Part shown: positions 3,992 to 12,785 of the stretch, piece after piece
Layout: every line of letters starts with the position of its first letter
Position numbering within the stretch: the first letter of the stretch is position 1
Virus record (IMG/VR): IMGVR_UViG_3300042375_000420
Location: 1 to 64,000 of that record
Reading direction: 5' to 3' (one strand)
Source of the DNA: a virus
DNA length: 64,000 bases
Translations under genes and position numbers: made by a program
Notes under the pieces: generated by a model
Database searches by the model: none
The model's input: the letters and a program-made list of their open reading frames with translations, nothing else
Told to the model about the DNA's origin: nothing

Positions 3992-5020
3992 ATGAGCAAC
4001 TATCAATATAATTCAGATAACTTAAATAGAAGAGGTTTTATTAGTAAGGAGAGCATTCTAGATTTAGTCACACAGGAGGAGGTATTTCAATTAGTGTTCA
4101 ACTTTATACCCCAAGAGTTTGATTATGTAGTGTCTCCACTGAGATATGATAGGACTCCAGGTTGTTGGTTTAGTTACCATACAAATGGAGTTCTTTATTT
4201 TATTGATTTTGCCCACACTAGAACCCATAGTGATTGCTTTAATATAGTGCAAGATTTTTTCAAATTCCCTAATTTTTACTTGACTTTAGAATATATCCAC
4301 AAAACTTTGATTCAAGGTAAAGTGGGACTGAAGCCTATTGATAATAGGGAAGAGACTAAAAAGTTAGTCAAAGAGAAAGTCAAACTCTTAATAGAAGCAA
4401 GGAACTTTGGGCCTGCAGATGTGAAGTTTTGGTCTCAATATGAGATTAGAAAAAAGCATTTGGTTGAAGATAGGGTTTTTGCTGTTCAAAAGTTATTTGC
4501 TTTGAACACTAAATCAGGGAGTCATATTATTGATTGCAAGGATATTGCATACAGTTACAATGATTTTCCTGAATCTAGGAAGAAAGTTTATTTTCCTATG
4601 AGAGAAGGCAAGAGAAGATTCTTAACAAACTGCACAAAGAATGATGTAGGTGGCATTAATTCCCTAGTGTCTTATGGTAAAGAGTTGATTATTGCTAAAT
4701 CTTATAAAGATTATAGAGTGCTGAAGAATAATGGTAAAAATGTGGTTTGGTTTCAGAATGAGGGGATGATACCCAATGACTTAATCTTAAATCTGTTGGT
4801 TAGAAATTTTGTTACTGTCATTGTATGGTTTGATAATGATCAACCTGGTATAGTAGCCTCTGAAAAAATCAAAACCCACATTAATAGCCTCATTCCAGGC
4901 AAAGCAAAGAATCTTTGGCTTCCAGAGAGAAGCTTAGAACAGGGTATTAAAGACCCATCTGATTGTATAGCTAAGGACAAATCCTTATTTCATCAATTCT
5001 TAAAAGACTTTACAGAATGA
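3992..5020 (+). CDS. DnaG-family DNA primase with TOPRIM domain
   Basis: 342 residues. Makes primers for lagging-strand synthesis with the helicase. The N-terminal half corresponds to the DnaG-type catalytic core without an obvious zinc-binding domain. TOPRIM is residues ~229-300: KELIIAKSYKDYRVL (K236-S-Y-K-D240) replaces the usual 'EGxxD', and the acidic pair is in VIVWFDNDQPG (D281, D283). The Glu-to-Lys variant is known in phage and plasmid TOPRIM primases ('TKSxKD'). The TGA overlaps the next ATG (ATGA), coupling it to the UDG-like gene. Confidence 0.85.
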   Translation: MSNYQYNSDNLNRRGFISKESILDLVTQEEVFQLVFNFIPQEFDYVVSPLRYDRTPGCWFSYHTNGVLYFIDFAHTRTHSDCFNIVQDFFKFPNFYLTLEYIHKTLIQGKVGLKPIDNREETKKLVKEKVKLLIEARNFGPADVKFWSQYEIRKKHLVEDRVFAVQKLFALNTKSGSHIIDCKDIAYSYNDFPESRKKVYFPMREGKRRFLTNCTKNDVGGINSLVSYGKELIIAKSYKDYRVLKNNGKNVVWFQNEGMIPNDLILNLLVRNFVTVIVWFDNDQPGIVASEKIKTHINSLIPGKAKNLWLPERSLEQGIKDPSDCIAKDKSLFHQFLKDFTE

Positions 5021-5550
5021 ATTTCAATTCTATTCATTACTCTTGGGGACCACTCCTGAGTGAATTTAATACAGATGCTTTCCTTTACTTCAAGAATGAA
5101 GTGTTACCCAAAGAAAAATATTACCCTGAAGCTCAAGAAGTCTTCAGGGTTTTTTCTATGCCTATGTCAGAAATTAAGGTTGTAGTAATAGCTAGAGAAG
5201 AAGCTTCTCCTATACTACAAGAAGGCCTTTTCTTCTTAAGAATGTCCCTAACTTATGGGGCAGACACAGACCATAGTGAATATTGGGAGCCATTCATTAA
5301 AAAGGTTATCTATTTTATTGCTAGGAGTAATCCTTGCATTTGGCTTTTGCCAACAACCAAATCACAGGGGTATACAGCTAATCTACCTGCTAAGACCATA
5401 TTTAATGTGATGAGATATGATGATGAAACAATTCATCAAATTCCAATTAATGTAGATTACAATTATGTGTTCAAAGGGACTTTTATTAACCTTAAACATA
5501 TAAACATCCTCTTAAAGAAGAGAGGAAAAACTGAATTAATTAATTTTTAA
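5017..5550 (+). CDS. Family-1 uracil-DNA-glycosylase homologue with a lost active site
   Basis: 177 residues. The overall pattern is that of UDG: an N-terminal SW-x-L motif, KYYPEAQEVFRVF (compare 'yyPp...iF.af'), the strand VKVVVIA, EGLFFL (compare 'hGLaFsv'), the WLLPTT strand, and a C-terminus GTFINLKHINILLKKRGK matching 'gcrhFskaNelL.k.G...I.W'. However the catalytic water-activating motif GQDPYH is replaced by AREEAS (residues 59-64) and no HPSP motif is visible. Family-1 glycosylases cannot act without that Asp. It is more likely a DNA-binding or processivity partner, as the UDG-fold D4 protein is in poxviruses, or an inhibitor/decoy. Coupled to primase by ATGA. Confidence 0.72.
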   Translation: MNFNSIHYSWGPLLSEFNTDAFLYFKNEVLPKEKYYPEAQEVFRVFSMPMSEIKVVVIAREEASPILQEGLFFLRMSLTYGADTDHSEYWEPFIKKVIYFIARSNPCIWLLPTTKSQGYTANLPAKTIFNVMRYDDETIHQIPINVDYNYVFKGTFINLKHINILLKKRGKTELINF

Positions 5551-5561
5551 AAGTTAACATC

Positions 5562-6248
5562 ATGAGTGAAGTACAAGCTCCAGTTATTACTGAAAGAGAA
5601 ATAACTATTTATGCTACCAGAGGTGGCCAAATGAAGAAAATCATGACTTCTGCAACTACTTGGGGAGAATTACAACCCCTTGTAAGAAGTGAAGGATTTG
5701 ATTTGTCTTCTTTATTAGCAGCTGAAAACATTAACAAGTCTGACTTGGTAAATGATTTAGCTGTATTACCAGCAACTGCTTTCAGATTGTTTTTGAGACC
5801 AAAGCAAACTAAGTCAGGTGCTTTGGACAGAAAAGAATGTTTTGCAGCTATCAAAGCTCACTTAGCTACTAATCCTGGAGATAAGTCTAAGTTTACCATT
5901 GATGGTAAAAATGTAACTCAGTTATCAACTTCTGTAGTACAGGATTTGGTAGCTAAGTACATTAATGCTTCTGCTCCAGCTACAAGAGTTGTGAATGAAG
6001 TTGTAGCTGAAAAAGTTTCTGAAAAGAAAGTTGTAGCTACTCTTGAGCCTATTGACAATTCTGATTTATCAGATGTTGAGAAAGTGCAAGAAGCTATTGA
6101 GTTAATTTCTTCTTTAGAAGGGTATGACTCTTATTACAAAGCTAACAAGCATTTGAATAACCTTCTTGCTGAAGTATCTCCTCAAACTGAAAAGATTGAG
6201 TCTGAAGAAGATGCTGTCAGAAGAGAAGCCAGAGAAATGGGTTACTAG
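5562..6248 (+). CDS. Ubiquitin-like beta-grasp protein precursor (PRTRC-C-like)
   Basis: 228 residues. Residues ~11-80 read as a beta-grasp fold: strand REITIYATR, turn GG, strand KKIMTSAT, helix TWGELQPLVRSEG, then strands ending in FRLFLRP. This is followed by KQTKSG (residues 81-86), where a ubiquitin-like protein would have its exposed C-terminal Gly. The chain continues with a second small module (residues ~90-135), a Lys/Glu/Val linker and a helical tail. The gene is followed by a strong terminator and then by genes for a JAB peptidase and ThiF/E1-like enzyme, the partners expected for a ubiquitin-like modifier in prokaryotic systems such as PRTRC. I infer that JAB cleavage after G86 could mature it. 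Fold assignment is by pattern. Confidence 0.62.
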   Translation: MSEVQAPVITEREITIYATRGGQMKKIMTSATTWGELQPLVRSEGFDLSSLLAAENINKSDLVNDLAVLPATAFRLFLRPKQTKSGALDRKECFAAIKAHLATNPGDKSKFTIDGKNVTQLSTSVVQDLVAKYINASAPATRVVNEVVAEKVSEKKVVATLEPIDNSDLSDVEKVQEAIELISSLEGYDSYYKANKHLNNLLAEVSPQTEKIESEEDAVRREAREMGY

Positions 6249-6257
6249 TATTAATTT

Positions 6258-6293
6258 AAGGGCTTATGTAATGTAAGCCCTTTAATTTTTTTT
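6258..6293 (+). terminator. Intrinsic terminator after the Ubl-like gene
   Basis: Perfect 9-bp stem AAGGGCTTA (6258-6266) / TAAGCCCTT (6274-6282) with a 7-nt loop, then a run of eight T at 6286-6293. It ends four bases before the next start codon. It probably lets only part of the transcription continue into the enzyme genes, so the Ubl protein would be made in excess. Confidence 0.8.
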
Positions 6294-6296
6294 ATT

Positions 6297-7505
6297 ATGT
6301 CAAGAAGTATAAAAGATAATTGTATCCCAGGAGAATATGTTAAAAACATTCTAAACAATGCAACTTTGTTAGGTACTCATAAAGATAAAATATTCTTAGA
6401 GAGGTTATTTGACAAACAGATTATTCAGATTAGAGGTGCAGGTGACCTTACTTCAATTGAAAAATCTTTATTTAAGTCTCAGTTCTTTAGAATATTAGAC
6501 TTGTTTGAAGAGAAGTACAAAGGTCAAGCTGATTTAGGTTTTCATTATGACCAACAAGCTGGGTATTTTATGCCTTACTTTAAAGTCCTTTATCCAAAGT
6601 TTACTATCACTAATAGTCAAGGAAGAAGCCATGAGATAAGAGATTTATTTGTATTTCATAGTTTTAAATGGACTAATGGTTCTATTCATCCCTACAAGTT
6701 AGAGGGTGGCAGATTCTCTAAAACTGATTTAGAAGTTTCTTCTAGTTATCAGCAGAGTCACTTAGGTAGTCACAGTGGTTGGAGAGATAATCCTTTCTAT
6801 TGTAGTTATTTCTGTGTTGGTTCTGAAACTGATGTTAGCCTAATGATGGCTGAGTTTGAAGTACAAATGGATTATGATAGATATGAATTGTTTTTGTTTT
6901 GTGTAGATAGTATGATTACTTGGGAATCCTTAGAGGGTGTCCCATTTATCAGAATGGAAGTGGTTAAGAATGCTAACTCTAATAGAGTTATGAGTAGTTC
7001 AGAAAGATTTGAGAATGCAGTAATTAATCACATTATGGTTGAAAAAATACCATTAGATGTTGATTTTTATGTGGCTGACAATCTTTATAAGATACACCCT
7101 AATTTAAGGGCATCTGATTTTATTAAGAAGATAGTGTTAAAGTATATGACCTTTGATATAGCTAAGACAATCTTAGTTAGTAAAGTGCCAAATACTTTTG
7201 ATCATTATTTACAAATGAAAGCAGAAGGAGCTGTTGCAAGAAGTCTTAATAAGGTTGCTGCAACAAAAGAGTACACTATTTTTAGAGGAAGAAAAATCTA
7301 TGCTAAAATAGTTAAAGAAGATAGAAGGAATGAAATCCCTATATCAGTAGAAGATTATATTGTTTATCCTAAATTTTTAGAAAATGTCATTAGAAAACTT
7401 GAGTCAAGAATCTATGAGAAAGCAGTTGTCAAGAGTGCAACTGAAATCTACAATTCCCGTAGTAATGCCCATAGAAGTGTTGCATCAGATACAGTATCTG
7501 TGTAA
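6297..7505 (+). CDS. Unknown protein of the Ubl cassette, possible E2-like (RWD-fold) protein
   Basis: 402 residues. Starts just after the terminator. Central part (residues ~85-205) alternates strands and loops: YFMPYFKVLYP, IRDLFVFHSFK, then SHLGSHS (154-160) and FYCSYFCVGS (167-176). A conserved-looking His pair followed ~14-18 residues later by Cys-Val-Gly resembles the 'H...CLG' signature of prokaryotic E2/RWD-like proteins. This, plus its place between a Ubl-like protein and JAB/E1 genes, suggests a conjugating-enzyme role with C173 as candidate thioester Cys. The C-terminal ~150 residues are helical and basic. The E2 idea is a hypothesis; the gene itself is secure. Its 3' end overlaps the JAB gene by up to 122 nt. 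Confidence 0.55.
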   Translation: MSRSIKDNCIPGEYVKNILNNATLLGTHKDKIFLERLFDKQIIQIRGAGDLTSIEKSLFKSQFFRILDLFEEKYKGQADLGFHYDQQAGYFMPYFKVLYPKFTITNSQGRSHEIRDLFVFHSFKWTNGSIHPYKLEGGRFSKTDLEVSSSYQQSHLGSHSGWRDNPFYCSYFCVGSETDVSLMMAEFEVQMDYDRYELFLFCVDSMITWESLEGVPFIRMEVVKNANSNRVMSSSERFENAVINHIMVEKIPLDVDFYVADNLYKIHPNLRASDFIKKIVLKYMTFDIAKTILVSKVPNTFDHYLQMKAEGAVARSLNKVAATKEYTIFRGRKIYAKIVKEDRRNEIPISVEDYIVYPKFLENVIRKLESRIYEKAVVKSATEIYNSRSNAHRSVASDTVSV

Positions 7506-8577
7506 ACTAATCTCTAAAGTAGAGTGGTCAGGAGCTCTATTTTATACTACTGAAGGTAGTATTGAAAAACCTGAAACATTCAAAATTACTTTGAAAACAA
7601 TCCTTCCATTAGATATGGGTTCTCAAGCTTATACTGAGTATAATCTTGATGAAAGATTTATGGATTTTGTTGAAGAAGACTTTGAAGAAAGATGTGCTTG
7701 GAAGTTAGGTCACATTCATAGTCATAATAGTATGGCAGTGTTCTTTTCAGGTACAGATATGGCTGAGCTTAATGATAATGCTCCAGCACATAATTTCTAC
7801 TTATCCTTAATTGTAAACAATGCTATGGATTTTCTAGCTAAAGTTGCTTTTATTGGAGAAGCTAAGAAAGATATTAAACAGGTTCCTTATACAGCTAAAA
7901 ATGTACAAGGCCATGATTACATCATTGAGAAACAAGACTTTGAAGTTAACACTCAAAAGTTATTTATCTTTGATTGTGATATTTATAGTGACTTACAAGA
8001 ACTTTCAGTTACTGAACAGTTTATAAATCAAGTTGCTAAAATCATGGAGCCTAAACCTGTGAAGACTTTTCCCAGACAAGTTACTACTAACCAAACTAAA
8101 GGTTGGAGCAGACAAGATCAAAGAGAAATTGATGCTTGGAATGAAGGGTTTAAGAAAACTCCAACTCTTTTTGATGATTGGGGTCTTCCAACTGATAAAG
8201 AGATTGAAGACTTAGCAGAATACGACTTAAAGGCACAATCTATTTACAACTTTGCAAAAGCTTTGTTTAGTTATACTACTTCTCCTTTAGATGAAGAAGA
8301 AACTGTTGAAGATGTTCTTGAAGACTTAGCAGAATATGACTTAACACCCCAAGAAGTAGCAAAGTCAGTAATCAATGATTATGCTAAGACTTTTGCTCAA
8401 CATTTTCCAAAGGCTTCTGCTGCTGATTTTGTACAATACACTCATGAAACTGTGGACTTACTAGAGGACATAAGTATGTTGTATCCTGAAATCAAACTGA
8501 CTATTAGAACTATTACATCAATGATTGATAAATTTATTTCACATGAGACAAGCAAGGGACACAAGTCAGCAAAGTAG
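7384..8577 (+). CDS. JAB/MPN (JAMM) zinc metallopeptidase
   Basis: 397 residues from ATG 7384; ATG 7414 is also possible and still keeps the first strand (IPVVMPIEVL). JAMM motif is complete: E47 in VEWSGALF, then H112-S-H114, seven residues, S122-x2-D125. This is the isopeptidase fold of proteasomal Rpn11, PRTRC-A and prokaryotic Ubl systems; it cleaves after C-terminal Gly of Ubl precursors or conjugates. The remainder (residues ~240-397) is helical and acidic, with a short duplicated segment EDLAEYDL (8208-8231 and 8321-8342). The start lies inside the upstream gene and the end overlaps the E1-like gene by 35 nt, so the three are translated as a coupled set. Confidence 0.85.
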   Translation: MSLENLSQESMRKQLSRVQLKSTIPVVMPIEVLHQIQYLCKLISKVEWSGALFYTTEGSIEKPETFKITLKTILPLDMGSQAYTEYNLDERFMDFVEEDFEERCAWKLGHIHSHNSMAVFFSGTDMAELNDNAPAHNFYLSLIVNNAMDFLAKVAFIGEAKKDIKQVPYTAKNVQGHDYIIEKQDFEVNTQKLFIFDCDIYSDLQELSVTEQFINQVAKIMEPKPVKTFPRQVTTNQTKGWSRQDQREIDAWNEGFKKTPTLFDDWGLPTDKEIEDLAEYDLKAQSIYNFAKALFSYTTSPLDEEETVEDVLEDLAEYDLTPQEVAKSVINDYAKTFAQHFPKASAADFVQYTHETVDLLEDISMLYPEIKLTIRTITSMIDKFISHETSKGHKSAK

Positions 8578-9244
8578 GTTTAAAGATGCACCATGGTTTC
8601 CTAAGAACAATGAAATTTGTTTAGTAGGTGGAGCTGGTGGTATAGGCTCTTGGTTATGTTTTTTCTTAACTAAGATAGGTTTTAAAGTCAATATCTATGA
8701 TTTTGACACTGTTGAAGACCACAATTTAGGTGGTCAATTATTTCAACAAGCTGATATTGGTAGTGCTAAAGTAGTGGCAATTCAAAGAATAGTACAGAAT
8801 TTCTGTGGGAACAGACTTTCTACTTTCAATGAAAGGATTACTAGTACTACTCCTCATCATTACTATAGTTTTTCTGCTTTTGACAATATGGAAGCTAGAA
8901 GAACTTTGTTTATGAATTGGAAACAATCTTGGGGAAGTTGCCCTGATGGAGTTACAGCCATATTCATAGATGGTAGATTAGAGATTGAGCAATTACAGAT
9001 ATTCTGTGTTACTCCTGAGAATGCTGATAGATATGAAAGAGAACACCTTTTCCATGACAGTGCTGTAGAAGAAGCTCCATGTACAATGAAGCAAACTTCT
9101 CATACTGCTGCTATGATAGGTTCTCTTATGTCAGCTTTCTTTACCAATCATATTACCAATGTTTATTTGGGTGAGACTCTCAGAGAAGTCCCATTCTATT
9201 ATGAGTTTGTAGTTCCTATGAACTTCACACAATCAGAGTTATGA
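8543..9244 (+). CDS. ThiF/MoeB/E1-like Ubl-activating enzyme
   Basis: 233 residues from ATG 8543; a TTG at 8525 would extend it but is less likely. Adenylates the C-terminus of ubiquitin-like proteins. The Rossmann motif LVGGAGGIGSW is at ~28-37; YDFDTVEDHNLGGQLF (52-67) matches 'DxDxVexsNLxRQ', with Gly in place of the Arg finger; FDNMEARR (113-120) matches 'DNxxtR'. Candidate catalytic Cys is C180 in EAPCTMKQTSH. There are no CxxC zinc ligands. The protein is short, so it is a minimal E1 of the PRTRC/phage type. Overlaps JAB upstream (35 nt) and the next gene downstream (ATGA). Confidence 0.85.
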   Translation: MRQARDTSQQSRFKDAPWFPKNNEICLVGGAGGIGSWLCFFLTKIGFKVNIYDFDTVEDHNLGGQLFQQADIGSAKVVAIQRIVQNFCGNRLSTFNERITSTTPHHYYSFSAFDNMEARRTLFMNWKQSWGSCPDGVTAIFIDGRLEIEQLQIFCVTPENADRYEREHLFHDSAVEEAPCTMKQTSHTAAMIGSLMSAFFTNHITNVYLGETLREVPFYYEFVVPMNFTQSEL

Positions 9245-10446
9245 AAATACATTTCTCAAGTTTAGGGAATTTTATTCCTGCTGACTTTAATATGACTTCT
9301 GAACATGCCAATGAATTTATTCCTTTAGTCTGTGGACAAAATATGTCAGTTAAAGATGGAATTCAATATTATTCTAAACCTTCTTTTGAAAAGCACCTTA
9401 GAAAACCAAACACTCTTAAGAATATTAAAGATGGTTTTGAGTTAGGTGGGACTACAAGAAGGATTGAAATCAATGGCAGAGTGTTCTTTATAGCAAAAGG
9501 AGTTTTCTTTTCAGAAGCAGGTGTACCTTTAATGGTATGTGCTATGAAAAAGGAAGCTTTCTTAGACCCTTTAGTCTCTAAGTTCTCTGACTTTAGAGCT
9601 GAAAATTTCTCCTACAATAATTACGTTTTATTTTATTCCACTTCTTTTTTCACTGATCCTGGTCTAACTCCTTTAAATAGGAGGCTTCAAAAAGAAATAT
9701 TACAAACTTGCTATGAAAAAGGTATAGAGGTAAGAATGATTACCTCCCTAGAAATAGAGAAGAATACCTTTGCAAGATTATTTGAAGTCAAAAAGACAAA
9801 GTCTTTGACACAATTAGAAGCCTATATGAATCAAGTATTGCCAAATTTTTTGCACACTCAAGGGGAGGACACCTTTGTAGAGCAAGAATTTGAGCCAGTA
9901 GTGATTCATAGAGAAGAACTTTCCGTAGAAGATGAAGCTCTTTTATTTGACAATGACTCAACCCCTGTTGCAGAACCTGTAGTACAAGCACCTGTTATAC
10001 CTAACAGACAACTTACTTTAGAAGAAGTGATAGAAATGGCTGAGTTAGAAGCTGAAGCTGCCCAATTTGATTCTGATTTAGAATCTTCTGATGATGAAGA
10101 TTATACTGAAGACTACAATGAAGATTGGGAGAATGATGAGCAAGATGAAGATGAAGAAGAGATACAAAGACATGAGGAAGCTGCCCATACAGGTTCTGAA
10201 AGAAATGTAACTATGTATATGAGTCAAGAAGCAGTAGGAGTATTTCAAGAAGCTCTTAGAGCTGAAGCTAATTCTCAATTATCAATGCCTCATCCTGCAG
10301 ACTCTTTAGTAGAAAGAATGAGACCTTTGCAAGATGCTTATAATGTGCAAATGTTACAAGCACAACAAAGAGGTCAATTACAAGCTGAAAGAGAAGCAGT
10401 TAGGTCATGGCAATCAGTTATAGAGTTAGTTGATGATACGGAATAG
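9241..10446 (+). CDS. Acidic protein at the end of the Ubl cassette, function unknown
   Basis: 401 residues, coupled to the E1-like gene by an ATGA overlap. Residues ~1-215 are a globular alpha/beta domain (strands such as RRIEINGRVFFIAKGVFF and LMVCAM) with no motif I know. Residues ~275-315 are an intensely acidic Asp/Glu stretch (for example DDEDYTEDYNEDWEND), then a helical, Gln-rich tail. The operon structure makes it a probable partner, substrate or effector of the Ubl enzymes. The acidic stretch could mimic DNA or mediate charge-based binding; this is speculative. Confidence 0.6.
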   Translation: MKIHFSSLGNFIPADFNMTSEHANEFIPLVCGQNMSVKDGIQYYSKPSFEKHLRKPNTLKNIKDGFELGGTTRRIEINGRVFFIAKGVFFSEAGVPLMVCAMKKEAFLDPLVSKFSDFRAENFSYNNYVLFYSTSFFTDPGLTPLNRRLQKEILQTCYEKGIEVRMITSLEIEKNTFARLFEVKKTKSLTQLEAYMNQVLPNFLHTQGEDTFVEQEFEPVVIHREELSVEDEALLFDNDSTPVAEPVVQAPVIPNRQLTLEEVIEMAELEAEAAQFDSDLESSDDEDYTEDYNEDWENDEQDEDEEEIQRHEEAAHTGSERNVTMYMSQEAVGVFQEALRAEANSQLSMPHPADSLVERMRPLQDAYNVQMLQAQQRGQLQAEREAVRSWQSVIELVDDTE

Positions 10447-10493
10447 TTCCAAAGGTATTTAAGTTTTTTATTATTAATCCTTAAAAATCTTAT

Positions 10494-11006
10494 ATGGGAA
10501 TTGGAGCAACAAACAAAAGAAAGGGGAGTACAGCAGAGAGATTTTATGCCAAGTTCTTTAGAGAATTAGGATTTACTTTCTGTGAGACCTCTAGATTTGT
10601 AAGCAAAAAGCATGACAATGCTAAGATAGACTTAATGTACATTCCTTTTAATCTACAAATTAAGGCAGGTATCCAAAAGAACATGAATCCTGGGAAGGAA
10701 TTATTTATGATGGCTACCTCTATTGCAAGCATGTTTCCCCTTGAAGATGATGTTCATAATAAACCTTGTTTGCTAATTCATTACAAGCAAGGTAAGCCTG
10801 GAGCCAGAAGGACTCCAGATATGGAAATGGTGTATATGTCTATGATACAATTTGATTTATTTAGATCTAAAAGTCCTCAACTAGAATATTCTATGTTGAA
10901 AGATTTTAAATTTGACTTAAACTCAGAATTTAAAAGTATTGTAGGTATGACACTTGACCATTTTAAAAGTGAAGTAATCTTAAAACAATATGTAACATGT
11001 CCGTAA
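10494..11006 (+). CDS. Holliday-junction-resolvase-like PD-(D/E)XK nuclease
   Basis: 170 residues. N-terminal KGSTAERFYAKFFRELGF resembles the 'Gs.aEr....L...GF' helix of Hjc-type nucleases, with E15 metal-binding. D46 in AKIDLMYI and Q55-x-K57 in NLQIKAG form a (D)-(Q/E)xK site. Length fits single-domain resolvases. Likely resolves branched recombination or replication intermediates before packaging. The next gene (RecE-like) starts 10 nt before its end. Confidence 0.75.
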   Translation: MGIGATNKRKGSTAERFYAKFFRELGFTFCETSRFVSKKHDNAKIDLMYIPFNLQIKAGIQKNMNPGKELFMMATSIASMFPLEDDVHNKPCLLIHYKQGKPGARRTPDMEMVYMSMIQFDLFRSKSPQLEYSMLKDFKFDLNSEFKSIVGMTLDHFKSEVILKQYVTCP

Positions 11007-12163
11007 TTGTAGCCACAAAGGAAGAAGTACAAGAGTACTATGGGTCTGATGCCTTAGGTCAGTCCAAATTAAAATTATTATTAGGGGACTTAGGTTCCTT
11101 TCACAAAGAGTTTGACTCTTCAGCAGAACATTTTATGATAGGTTCTGCAGTAGATTGTATCTTAACTAACTCACTAGAAGCCTTTAATGAGGAATATTAC
11201 ATTTCAGAAGTAGATAAACTACCTTCTGAAGCTGTGATAGAAATTCTAAAGTTAGTTTATGAAGATGTACTGCAGGACTATGCTGAGCATTTAGAAGTAA
11301 TTACAGGTCAGGACAATCCTTTACCTGTTACCTCATTCCATGAGTTTGTAGGAGAACTTGGAAATTGGGGAGCTTATATTCTAGATGCTTGTGAAAAAAC
11401 AGGATGGCAGCCAAGATGGGGTGCTGATGCTAAACTTAAGAATATTGTAGAACCTAGTTCTGCTTATTTCTTGGATTTATGCTTAGGTTTTGGTAAGACT
11501 GTAATAAGTCAAACTCAAAACAACACTATCAAAAGCATAGTACATTCTTTACAATCTAATCCAAGAACAGCTAGTTTCTTTGACAGAGATTTCTATGAAG
11601 ATATGCCAGACCTTACAGTGTATTATCAGTTTCCTATTTACTTTGAGTATAGAGGAGTAAACTGTAAAGCACTATTAGATATGGTCTTTGTTTATAGAAC
11701 TGAAGAGGGAAAGATTACAGTTGTTGTAGGGGTAGATTTAAAAACTATGAATGGAAATACTTTTTATTTTCCTAGTAGTGTAAGAGCAAGAAGATATGAT
11801 ATCCAAGCTGCTTGGTATACTTTAGCTCTTCACAAACATTTTGCAGTTCCTGATGGTTCTGATGTGATTAAACCTTTCCAATTTGTAGTAGAATCTACTT
11901 CATATCAAGGAAAACCTTTGAATTTTATTGTTGATTCTTCTCTTTTAAACATGGGAAGATTTGGTAAAAAAGCTCTTACTCTTGTAGATACTAATCTATT
12001 TACAGAGGGTGCTCAAAATGCCACATTACAACAAAGTGTCTTAGGATTTGAAGATTTGTTAGACCTTTATATTTATCATTCTGAGAATGGTTTTAGTGAA
12101 GAAAGACAAATCCAAGAAGCAGGTTTGAAACCATTGGTAATCAACTGGGATGGTGTTATCTAA
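10997..12163 (+). CDS. RecE/exonuclease VIII-like PD-(D/E)XK exonuclease
   Basis: 388 residues. The C-terminal half carries the YqaJ/RecE-type nuclease core: YRGVNCKALLDMVFVY (D228), VGVDLKT (D247-x-K249), then RRYDIQAAWYTLAL (Q270-x3-Y274), the classical QxxxY motif. GSAVD near residue 50 matches the 'GsavH' region with Asp in place of His. Such enzymes make 3' overhangs for annealing-type recombination and would fit with the Sak4-like ATPase. Overlaps both neighbours by about 10-14 nt. Confidence 0.8.
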   Translation: MSVIVATKEEVQEYYGSDALGQSKLKLLLGDLGSFHKEFDSSAEHFMIGSAVDCILTNSLEAFNEEYYISEVDKLPSEAVIEILKLVYEDVLQDYAEHLEVITGQDNPLPVTSFHEFVGELGNWGAYILDACEKTGWQPRWGADAKLKNIVEPSSAYFLDLCLGFGKTVISQTQNNTIKSIVHSLQSNPRTASFFDRDFYEDMPDLTVYYQFPIYFEYRGVNCKALLDMVFVYRTEEGKITVVVGVDLKTMNGNTFYFPSSVRARRYDIQAAWYTLALHKHFAVPDGSDVIKPFQFVVESTSYQGKPLNFIVDSSLLNMGRFGKKALTLVDTNLFTEGAQNATLQQSVLGFEDLLDLYIYHSENGFSEERQIQEAGLKPLVINWDGVI

Positions 12164-12785
12164 GATAGTAAACACAGAAATGGATATCATTGTTGGGAGA
12201 CTATACATTAACAGAACTGTTAAGTATTTGGTTCCTGGTCTTGGTTTCTATGGGCCTACTTTGAAGACTAAGTTAAATCTAGTCTTCAAATTGGCTTTTG
12301 GCATACATGATACTTTGCTAACAGGTTCTCATTTAGAAGGTCAGAAGAATATTTACATTCTTATTGACAAGCTTGTGAGACCTGATTTATTCCAAAACTT
12401 TATGGATTGGGTAAAACATCAAGAGTATTTTGTTACTGACTATGTTTATGATTCAATATTAGAAGCTCATAGTAGAAAGCACATGATTGTGCTAGCTTAT
12501 CCTCCTTCAATGGGGGATGCCTATGATAAGTTTCTATTAGGTAAGTATAGCAAGATGTACACTAAACAAGAGATTACAAGTTATTTTGCTGAAGAAGCTA
12601 AAGTTGAAACAAGGCAAGTACTAGTTAAAACAGTACATGCTAAGCATAGATTTATTTCTTTAATTAAGGCAACTTTTAACACTCAGTTAGAAGAACAAGA
12701 CTTCTTAATAGGCTCTTGGGAGTTTGATCTCCCACCTAATGAAGAAGAAGAGTATTTTAATACTTGGAAACCTATGGGGAGCTAG
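12150..12785 (+). CDS. Conserved hypothetical protein
   Basis: 211 residues, start overlapping the exonuclease gene by 14 nt. Alpha/beta, soluble, with strands YIINRTVKYLVPG-like at the N-terminus and KNIYILIDKL, IVLAYP in the middle. No catalytic motif recognised. A hairpin sits over its stop codon. Confidence 0.7.
   Translation: MVLSKIVNTEMDIIVGRLYINRTVKYLVPGLGFYGPTLKTKLNLVFKLAFGIHDTLLTGSHLEGQKNIYILIDKLVRPDLFQNFMDWVKHQEYFVTDYVYDSILEAHSRKHMIVLAYPPSMGDAYDKFLLGKYSKMYTKQEITSYFAEEAKVETRQVLVKTVHAKHRFISLIKATFNTQLEEQDFLIGSWEFDLPPNEEEEYFNTWKPMGS

Follow-up and report, generated by a model that had tools for sequence, protein, structure and literature searches.

The DNA analysed here, referred to as the window, is a 64,000-nucleotide stretch comprising positions 1 to 64,000 of the 64,380-base virus record IMGVR_UViG_3300042375_000420 in IMG/VR. 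We examined a cassette of five consecutive open reading frames (ORFs) on its plus strand (5562-10446), which encode a predicted ubiquitin-like (Ubl) precursor, an E2-like protein, a JAMM metallopeptidase, an E1-like adenylating enzyme and a fifth protein (Table 1). An initial annotation, made from the sequence alone, had placed five consecutive genes here with overlaps of 122, 35 and 4 nt, and both the coordinates and the overlaps were borne out. The overlaps are exact when the E1 gene starts at the ATG at 8543; from its other start option, the TTG at 8525, the second overlap is 53 nt. The 8543 ATG corresponds to Met7 of the TTG frame, which is kept in 56 of 60 E1 sequences. General libraries recognize outright only the E1, and the other cassette genes match PHROG families of unknown function.

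In its structure prediction, the product of the first gene opens with a ubiquitin-like beta-grasp domain, in agreement with the beta-grasp proposed for it by the initial annotation. Its AlphaFold2 model, built from 52 sequences, had a mean predicted local distance difference test score (pLDDT) of 86.3 and a predicted template modeling score (pTM) of 0.45, with block-mean pLDDT values of 91-97 over residues 11-80. The high-confidence elements are strands 12-18 and 23-29, helix 34-43, and strands 51-55 and 74-80, after which a linker and helices follow. When the model was compared with the PDB using Foldseek, the best rows were UBX, Ubl and ubiquitin-like domains (best E 8.8e-4, probability 1.00), with a single row below E 0.001. 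VIA-align 2 placed residues 12-85 on ubiquitin (1ubq) with a Z of 8.9 and a root-mean-square deviation of 2.6 over 70 aligned residues, and residues 12-86 onto ubiquitin 1-76 for entries such as 5zq5_B, 2znv_C and 5ifr_B. Other beta-grasp folds score equally well in VIA, for instance the kindlin FERM domain 6xtj (Z 9.5). By sequence, we found no convincing Pfam, NCBIfam or PADLOC family and no convincing PDB match for the Ubl.

Since the last aligned residue is 85 or 86 against ubiquitin residue 76, Gly86 lies at, or one residue past, the place of ubiquitin Gly76. We aligned 118 of the 119 sequences of the Ubl family and found Gly at column 86 in 117 of them, the remaining one being gapped and reading KAG nearby, while column 85 was Ser in 114 of 118. 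The residue after Gly86 is variable (13 kinds). None of the 117 sequences stops exactly at Gly86: more than 60 further residues are present in 102 of them, 8-60 in seven and 1-5 in eight. As judged from these alignments, a conserved glycine followed by variable tails is the pattern of a precursor needing cleavage. The pattern resembles ubiquitin-ribosomal-protein fusions; eukaryotic ubiquitin is released from its fusion proteins.

There are also signs of the tail standing alone, namely its separation from the Ubl in cr106_1, its presence without a Ubl in cr116_1, and an L7/L12-type domain in another phage. In cr106_1, the Ubl ends two residues past the glycine (KSGKF) and is followed by an HNH endonuclease gene, and the tail forms an ORF of its own; Rfam detected no intron between the two pieces of the Ubl gene, where the HNH gene sits. 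In the 18 kb of cr116_1 that were read, the tail domain remains, and neither the Ubl domain nor the E1, E2 or JAMM was found. A match of cr116_1 to the Ubl profile (E 3.1e-12) was rejected as a retained Ubl because its translation consists of the tail domain only. The L7/L12-type domain was observed in phage L073 (4313-5248), where the Ubl precursor tail holds a ribosomal L7/L12 C-terminal domain (PF00542, 3.1e-10).

The complete JAMM motif reported by the initial annotation is intact in the window protein (HxHx7SxxD), for which Pfam Prok-JAB alone gave a weak match (0.066). This motif was found in 109 of 114 distinct JAMM proteins longer than 250 aa, and the five that lack it come from genes broken at the motif, of which they are the downstream parts. 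The family is related to PRTRC_A (hhalign 2.5e-7), with the motif aligned as HSH..M...FS.TD; the best PDB profile match was COP9 subunit 5 (E 0.02), and archaeal-type JAMM1 followed at E 0.24. On these sequence grounds, the JAMM would serve as the peptidase for Ubl processing and de-conjugation. The ThiF/E1 fold of the next product, likewise claimed earlier, is clear (Pfam ThiF, 2e-15), and residues D59, D61, N67, Q71, K82 and C186 occur in all 60 E1 sequences. Cys186 aligns with the PSCS cysteine of PRTRC ThiF, and the closest PDB relative by profile is UBA5 (1.6e-12).

Six relatives carry interruptions in these two genes. The JAMM gene is interrupted in or beside the HxHS codons in five of them (L036, L040, L045, L048 and L069) and the E1 gene at the glycine loop in one (L023). 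Rfam recognized a group I intron in four of the six loci (L040, L048, L069 and L023); the inserts of the other two hold an ORF read as a homing endonuclease, and such ORFs occur in several inserts. As a rule, introns placed at active-site codons belong to genes with invariant active sites. The interruptions are thus an indirect sign that the JAMM and E1 sites are under selection.

For the product of the gene at 6297, earlier called a possible E2, that proposal was strengthened without being proven. Cys173, His155 and Gly175 are present in 61 of 61 sequences, and the pattern SH-x(10-30)-CxG occurs in 112 of 112 distinct complete proteins. The AlphaFold model (mean pLDDT 88.2, pTM 0.77) has an N-terminal helix, a strand meander, the Cys after a short strand, and helices, in that order. 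In VIA searches with this model, UBC-fold proteins ranked first (best Z 6.8): the first 13 rows, and 17 of the first 18, are what we take to be UBC folds (Tsg101/Vps23 UEV, Ube2W, Fts, UBE2L6, UBE2E1 and an RWD domain), with a Mediator complex chain at row 14 and the Cap2 complex at row 22. A viral fold search gave six entries at E ≤0.001, and the five strongest include two labeled as podovirus, one crAss-like phage and cr128_1. No convincing Pfam, NCBIfam or PADLOC family and no convincing PDB sequence match was found, and the weak profile rows for the E2-like protein and the Ubl, uL3 among them, look like noise. Because sequence searches gave no link, both identities rest on predicted structure, conservation and position, and since Z is at most 6.8, the E2 assignment stays a supported inference.

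To see how far the genes travel together, we collected IMG/VR loci anchored on the E1, the JAMM or the Ubl. The four core genes were present in 54 of 54 E1-anchored, 53 of 53 JAMM-anchored and 18 of 18 Ubl-anchored loci with enough flank, that is, more than 4 kb upstream and more than 3 kb downstream of the anchor; the three anchor sets share contigs. Overall, 162 of 186 loci, with 110 distinct E1 proteins, hold all four, and in all 162 the order is Ubl-E2-JAMM-E1 on one strand. Among the remaining 24, none with enough flank missed a core gene; one of the 31 Ubl-anchored loci had no Ubl by profile. Of the 163 loci with a single piece each of the E2 and JAMM genes, 158 have the two overlapping, by a median of 104 nt. 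The E1-anchored result is partly circular because the profiles were seeded from proteins chosen by their position beside the E1. The JAMM- and Ubl-anchored scans used DNA patterns of their own on contigs shared with the E1 scan, the JAMM-anchored scan covering the best 80 of 302 relatives. With the four genes together in every related locus with enough flank and in one order, we rejected the possibility that they are chance neighbors.

An E1 search retrieved 79 phage records, namely 29 Flavobacterium phages, crAss-like phages of Bacteroides or faeces, and a few jumbo phages in other contexts. The E1 of FpV4, a Fipvunavirus whose record gives no order, is 58% identical to that of the window, and the opened crAss-like records with an assigned family belong to Steigviridae: Asinivirinae. 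We found the block in nine records: FpV4, crAss001, DAC15, cr85_1, Dulem virus 41, bajarodcaudo virus 1, cr111_1, cr128_1 and cr106_1. Judged by E1 sequence, the closest named relatives of the window virus are Flavobacterium phages such as FpV4 and then Crassvirales, and it is plausibly crAss-like itself. In the records of the cultured phages crAss001 and DAC15, the cassette genes carry thiamine biosynthesis, metalloprotease or hypothetical labels; for crAss001, the label 'thiamine biosynthesis protein' stands on the E1 and 'metalloprotease domain containing protein' on the JAMM, while the Ubl and E2 are hypothetical. An origin from a bacterial chromosome was rejected, as a scan of genome contigs gave two short contigs (3.7 and 6.8 kb) of Spirochaetia metagenome-assembled genomes, one with all four core genes, which are probably phage contigs in bins. 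PF14460 was not found in these two Spirochaetia genomes nor in 14 controls, which is uninformative.

No description of a phage Ubl-E2-JAMM-E1 system was found in the open-license literature, which does not show it to be unpublished. A term search found no mention of ubiquitin in PMC7886860, PMC6235969 or PMC10172136 and none of a phage Ubl in PMC7824862. Two further loci hold E1 relatives in other settings. In the 595-kb phage LR756511 (L085, 5648-7573), a Prok-JAB protein (8.2e-8) lies near a ThiF-type E1 (6.8e-32), possibly another phage Ubl set. In the Xanthomonas jumbo phage PhiXhv-12 (L084, 6932-7615), an E1 relative groups beside the crAss-type clade in the tree on a long branch; its context differs, and no Ubl, E2 or JAMM was recognized there.

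The fifth gene is a looser companion. Relatives of it were recognized in 45 of 54 E1-anchored, 32 of 53 JAMM-anchored and 8 of 18 Ubl-anchored full loci. The initial annotation had called its product an acidic partner, which holds for the window protein and is not a property of the family, whose pI has a median of 5.4 and ranges from 4.3 to 9.5 (109 ORFs).

Table 1. Features of the cassette and its borders (positions in the window)
Feature	Position	Strand	Basis or remark
DNA primase (TOPRIM)	3992..5020	+	phrog_12622 DNA primase, 1.2e-84; conserved upstream border of the slot
Uracil-DNA glycosylase (UDG)-like protein	5017..5550	+	phrog_12143, 7.7e-24 (function unknown); position corresponds to that of an FpV4 gene with a uracil-DNA glycosylase annotation
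Ubl precursor, ubiquitin-like domain (residues 1-86) and tail	5562..6248	+	predicted structure
Gly86 codon, predicted mature C-terminus and JAMM cleavage point	5817..5819	+	conservation; VIA alignment to ubiquitin
Tail beyond Gly86	5820..6245	+	model: helices 90-137, low-confidence linker, helices 171-227
E2-like protein	6297..7505	+	invariant Cys173 (codon 6813-6815) and His155 (6759-6761)
JAMM metallopeptidase with C-terminal extension	7384..8577	+	motif codons 7717-7758
E1-like adenylating enzyme (ThiF fold)	8543..9244	+	Cys186 (TTG-frame numbering), codon 9080-9082; glycine loop ~8630-8650
Fifth gene	9241..10446	+	long acidic stretch in the window protein
RusA-like resolvase candidate and exonuclease VIII-like gene, downstream border	10494..12163	+	phrog_244, 1.2e-4; phrog_412, 1.4e-27

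The cassette occupies a slot downstream of the primase gene; DnaB-like and Sak4-like genes lie upstream in the window, and the UDG-like protein has no Pfam match at 0.01. Some related phages carry other genes in this slot. Between primase and UDG, cr108_1 and Cellulophaga phi14:2 hold a set of ATP-grasp, COOH-NH2 ligase, glutamine amidotransferase or aminotransferase, and amidoligase genes, and cr116_1 holds rIIA and rIIB. These names were checked by profile for cr108_1 and cr116_1 and rest on annotation only for phi14:2; all three phages are Asinivirinae. The cassette enzymes were not found by profile in the 17-22 kb read of each (chance-level matches at E 0.06-0.1 were ignored). We also scanned primase-anchored loci (the best 80 of 309), setting aside 32 with less than 4 kb downstream. 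The 48 with at least 4 kb comprise six with the Ubl, four with rII, of which L279 was counted by an N-terminal rIIA piece only, and one with the amidoligase.

Two other observations concern the slot. The rIIA gene in the slot of cr116_1 (L216, 6608-9814) is itself split by a group I intron (7713-7981), which comes with an endonuclease-like ORF (7060-7773). The slot of L230 contains two large ORFs (438 and 458 aa), the second with what we read as an ATPase-like motif, and L231 shows the same spacing; this is possibly a further module.

What the analysis shows are the genes with their motifs, their inheritance as a group, a Ubl fold by prediction, and conservation at Gly86 that looks like a domain boundary. 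Going by sequence and predicted structure, the gene set very probably constitutes a pathway of Ubl conjugation and de-conjugation. Overall, the explanation that we favor as likely is that the virus encodes this pathway for host takeover or counter-defense. We infer each chemical step and the direction of flow. The JAMM would cut the Ubl precursor after Gly86 and so free an 86-residue modifier from its tail; the E1-like enzyme would adenylate the Gly86 carboxylate and hold the modifier on Cys186; and the E2-like protein would receive it on Cys173 and pass it to a target, from which the JAMM could also strip it.

Some related phages have rIIA/rIIB or an amidoligase/ATP-grasp set at this position behind the primase, and for that reason the cassette may be one of several interchangeable modules for host takeover or counter-defense, a role to which we give slightly less than even chances. 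rIIAB protects T4 against RexAB (PMC8594841), T4 rIIA orthologues have been called a poorly understood counter-defense system (PMC7824862), and a phage ATP-grasp family, not shown to be identical to that of the slot, has been proposed to modify host proteins (PMC4431377). In a more tentative extension, Crassvirales-type phages might have evolved interchangeable protein-attack modules in which a Ubl cascade, T4-type rIIA/rIIB and amidoligase/ATP-grasp tagging do the same job, and the Ubl precursor might be a viral parallel of the ubiquitin-ribosomal-protein fusions that is cut into modifier and tail protein.

Several findings weigh against a Ubl pathway directed at the host. The Ubl terminus is a single KSG and not GG. 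For the E2-like protein, VIA advises caution under a Z of 8, which the best row does not reach, and each of the first 12 rows is a UEV domain. The strongest Foldseek hit in the PDB was an unrelated protein (E 0.096), with nothing reaching E 0.001, and hhalign did not connect the sequence to PRTRC_B (E 0.098). As for the slot, 37 of the 48 primase-anchored loci hold none of Ubl, rII and amidoligase. We considered rIIAB for those 37 and rejected it, since iterated profiles over the 80 loci gave five rIIA and three rIIB ORFs and none in the 37 (the rIIA ORFs lie in L234, L265, L267 and two of the 32 short loci; L279 was not recovered). Moreover, the UDG precedes the cassette in the window and FpV4 and follows the slot in Asinivirinae, so that the far border of the slot differs between them. 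Lastly, the cassette lies inside a block of DNA metabolism, which would equally fit modification of the phage's own replication proteins.

This last point bears on the rival that survives best, although we regard it as rather unlikely: the pathway would tag not the host but the phage's own replication and recombination proteins, such as the primase, the Sak4-like protein, the resolvase, the exonuclease and the fifth gene product. The cassette does sit among primase, UDG, RusA-like/Holliday-junction and exonuclease genes, with the DnaB-like and Sak4-like genes upstream, and in the model the Ubl domain is followed by three helices that give the impression of a SAP/HeH nucleic-acid-binding motif. 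However, the three relatives with the same neighbors have rIIA/rIIB or amidoligases in place of these enzymes in the stretch read, so the replication block can work without the cassette.

A clearly unlikely alternative is that the 6297 product is another cysteine enzyme or an adaptor, and that the E1 passes the Ubl on directly. The fold match is weak and its best rows are non-catalytic UEV domains, as this alternative would have it, but Cys173 and His155 are both invariant (61 of 61), the model keeps the order of helix, strand meander, Cys and helices, and the gene's place just before the JAMM and E1 equals that of PRTRC_B.

It is also quite improbable that the cassette is a decoy or antagonist of host Ubl-based defense (Bil, Bub, CBASS Cap2/Cap3), whether by a JAMM that strips conjugates or by a Ubl and E1 that poison host enzymes. 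Bil is a host Ubl-type defense. Such defense also exists as CBASS (PMC10097602), and the JAMM motif is kept; yet a simple antagonist needs no joint Ubl, E2, JAMM and E1 in one order in 162 of 162 loci.

Least probable is a sulfur carrier, in which the E1 and JAMM would process a protein of the ThiS/MoaD type and its thiocarboxylate would supply thiolation reactions. In its favor, the E1 is distantly ThiF-like (NCBIfam PRK08644, 2e-12), and PMC1779556 discusses siderophore-related operons that combine JAB, E1-like and Ubl proteins. Against it, the E1 scores far under the cut-off for ThiF (47.2 of 159 bits), the scanned neighbors include neither a rhodanese nor another enzyme that uses sulfur, and the E1 has retained an E2-like partner gene whose product has an invariant Cys. 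The public annotation as thiamine biosynthesis was rejected on the same PRK08644 score and on 31.9 of 275.25 bits for adenyl_thiF.

If the reading as a Ubl pathway is true, a bacterial virus permanently carries genes for a complete Ubl tagging pathway of its own. As cultured gut crAss-like phages already carry the cassette under labels such as thiamine biosynthesis, this is testable now in laboratory hosts. The swap with rIIA/rIIB, in turn, would allow the function of rII, which is poorly understood, to be approached by comparison.

We compared the cassette with known Ubl systems, beginning with the Bil and CBASS systems that the initial annotation had named as relatives together with PRTRC. 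The likeness to CBASS, Bil and Bub lies in bacterial E1-type tagging: Cap2 and BubCD appear among the remote PDB relatives of the E1, ranked after entries such as UBA5 and MccB (BubCD E1 by profile, 1.7e-4). In contrast, only the E1 core matches (PADLOC E1-E2 5.1e-6, BilD 0.03) and the phage genes are separate and virus-encoded. Where CBASS Cap2/Cap3 has an E2-E1 fusion next to a CD-NTase, the phage E1 and E2 are on separate ORFs, and no CD-NTase match was found among ten proteins searched against Pfam and five against PADLOC. Lambdoid phage tail proteins I and K combine a Ubl with a JAB (PMC1779556) and likewise have a phage Ubl, a C-terminal domain past a glycine-rich region and an adjoining JAB peptidase; unlike the cassette, they lie in tail genes and not in a DNA-metabolism block, and the available text describes no E1 or E2 with them. 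In the Ub/Rpn11 operon of Caldiarchaeum, the JAMM cuts the Ub precursor after its terminal glycine and strips conjugates (PMC6043591), the same JAMM mechanism as proposed here for the phage, but that system is cellular and has a Gly-Gly terminus and a nine-residue propeptide.

The closest resemblance is to PRTRC, which from its gene content and listed species we take to be operon type 6d of Iyer et al. 2006 (PMC1779556). The E1 (hhalign 5.5e-18) and JAMM (2.5e-7) are homologous to the phage proteins, and the order Ubl ... E2-JAMM-E1 recurs in seven of nine plasmid regions, the other two listing no protein A; in the seven regions with a JAMM, the order is Ubl, F or another protein, E2, JAMM, E1. 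Membership, on the other hand, was rejected, as each test for a PRTRC-specific family failed. The phage E1 scored 42.4 of 144.75 bits for PRTRC ThiF (TIGR03736), below its cut-off; the phage Ubl had neither a match to Prok_Ub/PRTRC_C nor an hhalign link; the E2-like protein had no match to Prok-E2_D/PRTRC_B in Pfam or NCBIfam; the JAMM, though related in its core, had none to DUF2016/PRTRC_A; and no Pfam match to the ParB, E and F companions was seen among the ten proteins of 3992-12782. In an E1 tree with 44 of 60 non-redundant phage rows, the phage and PRTRC clades were separate (supports 96/92 and 100/99), the bootstrap being rough and not settled, with many long branches. The systems further differ in that PRTRC is found on plasmids and the cassette on phages, that six of nine PRTRC Ubls end at most four residues from the KG/NG position whereas phage Ubls are mostly long-tailed, and that the His of type 6d E2s is said to be missing from its usual place before the Cys and to occur after it (PMC1779556), while the phage E2-like protein has its invariant His before the Cys. 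A clear contrast is provided by a true PRTRC set (E, Prok_Ub, Prok-E2_D and ThiF) that we observed on a 175-kb plasmid of a gut Phocaeicola (L213, 2796-6729). Taken together, the analogy suggests that the cassette probably works as PRTRC probably does without being a PRTRC member. If the reading as a Ubl pathway is true, prokaryotes would have a functional set of E1, E2, Ubl and JAMM that belongs to none of the PRTRC, CBASS and Bil families.

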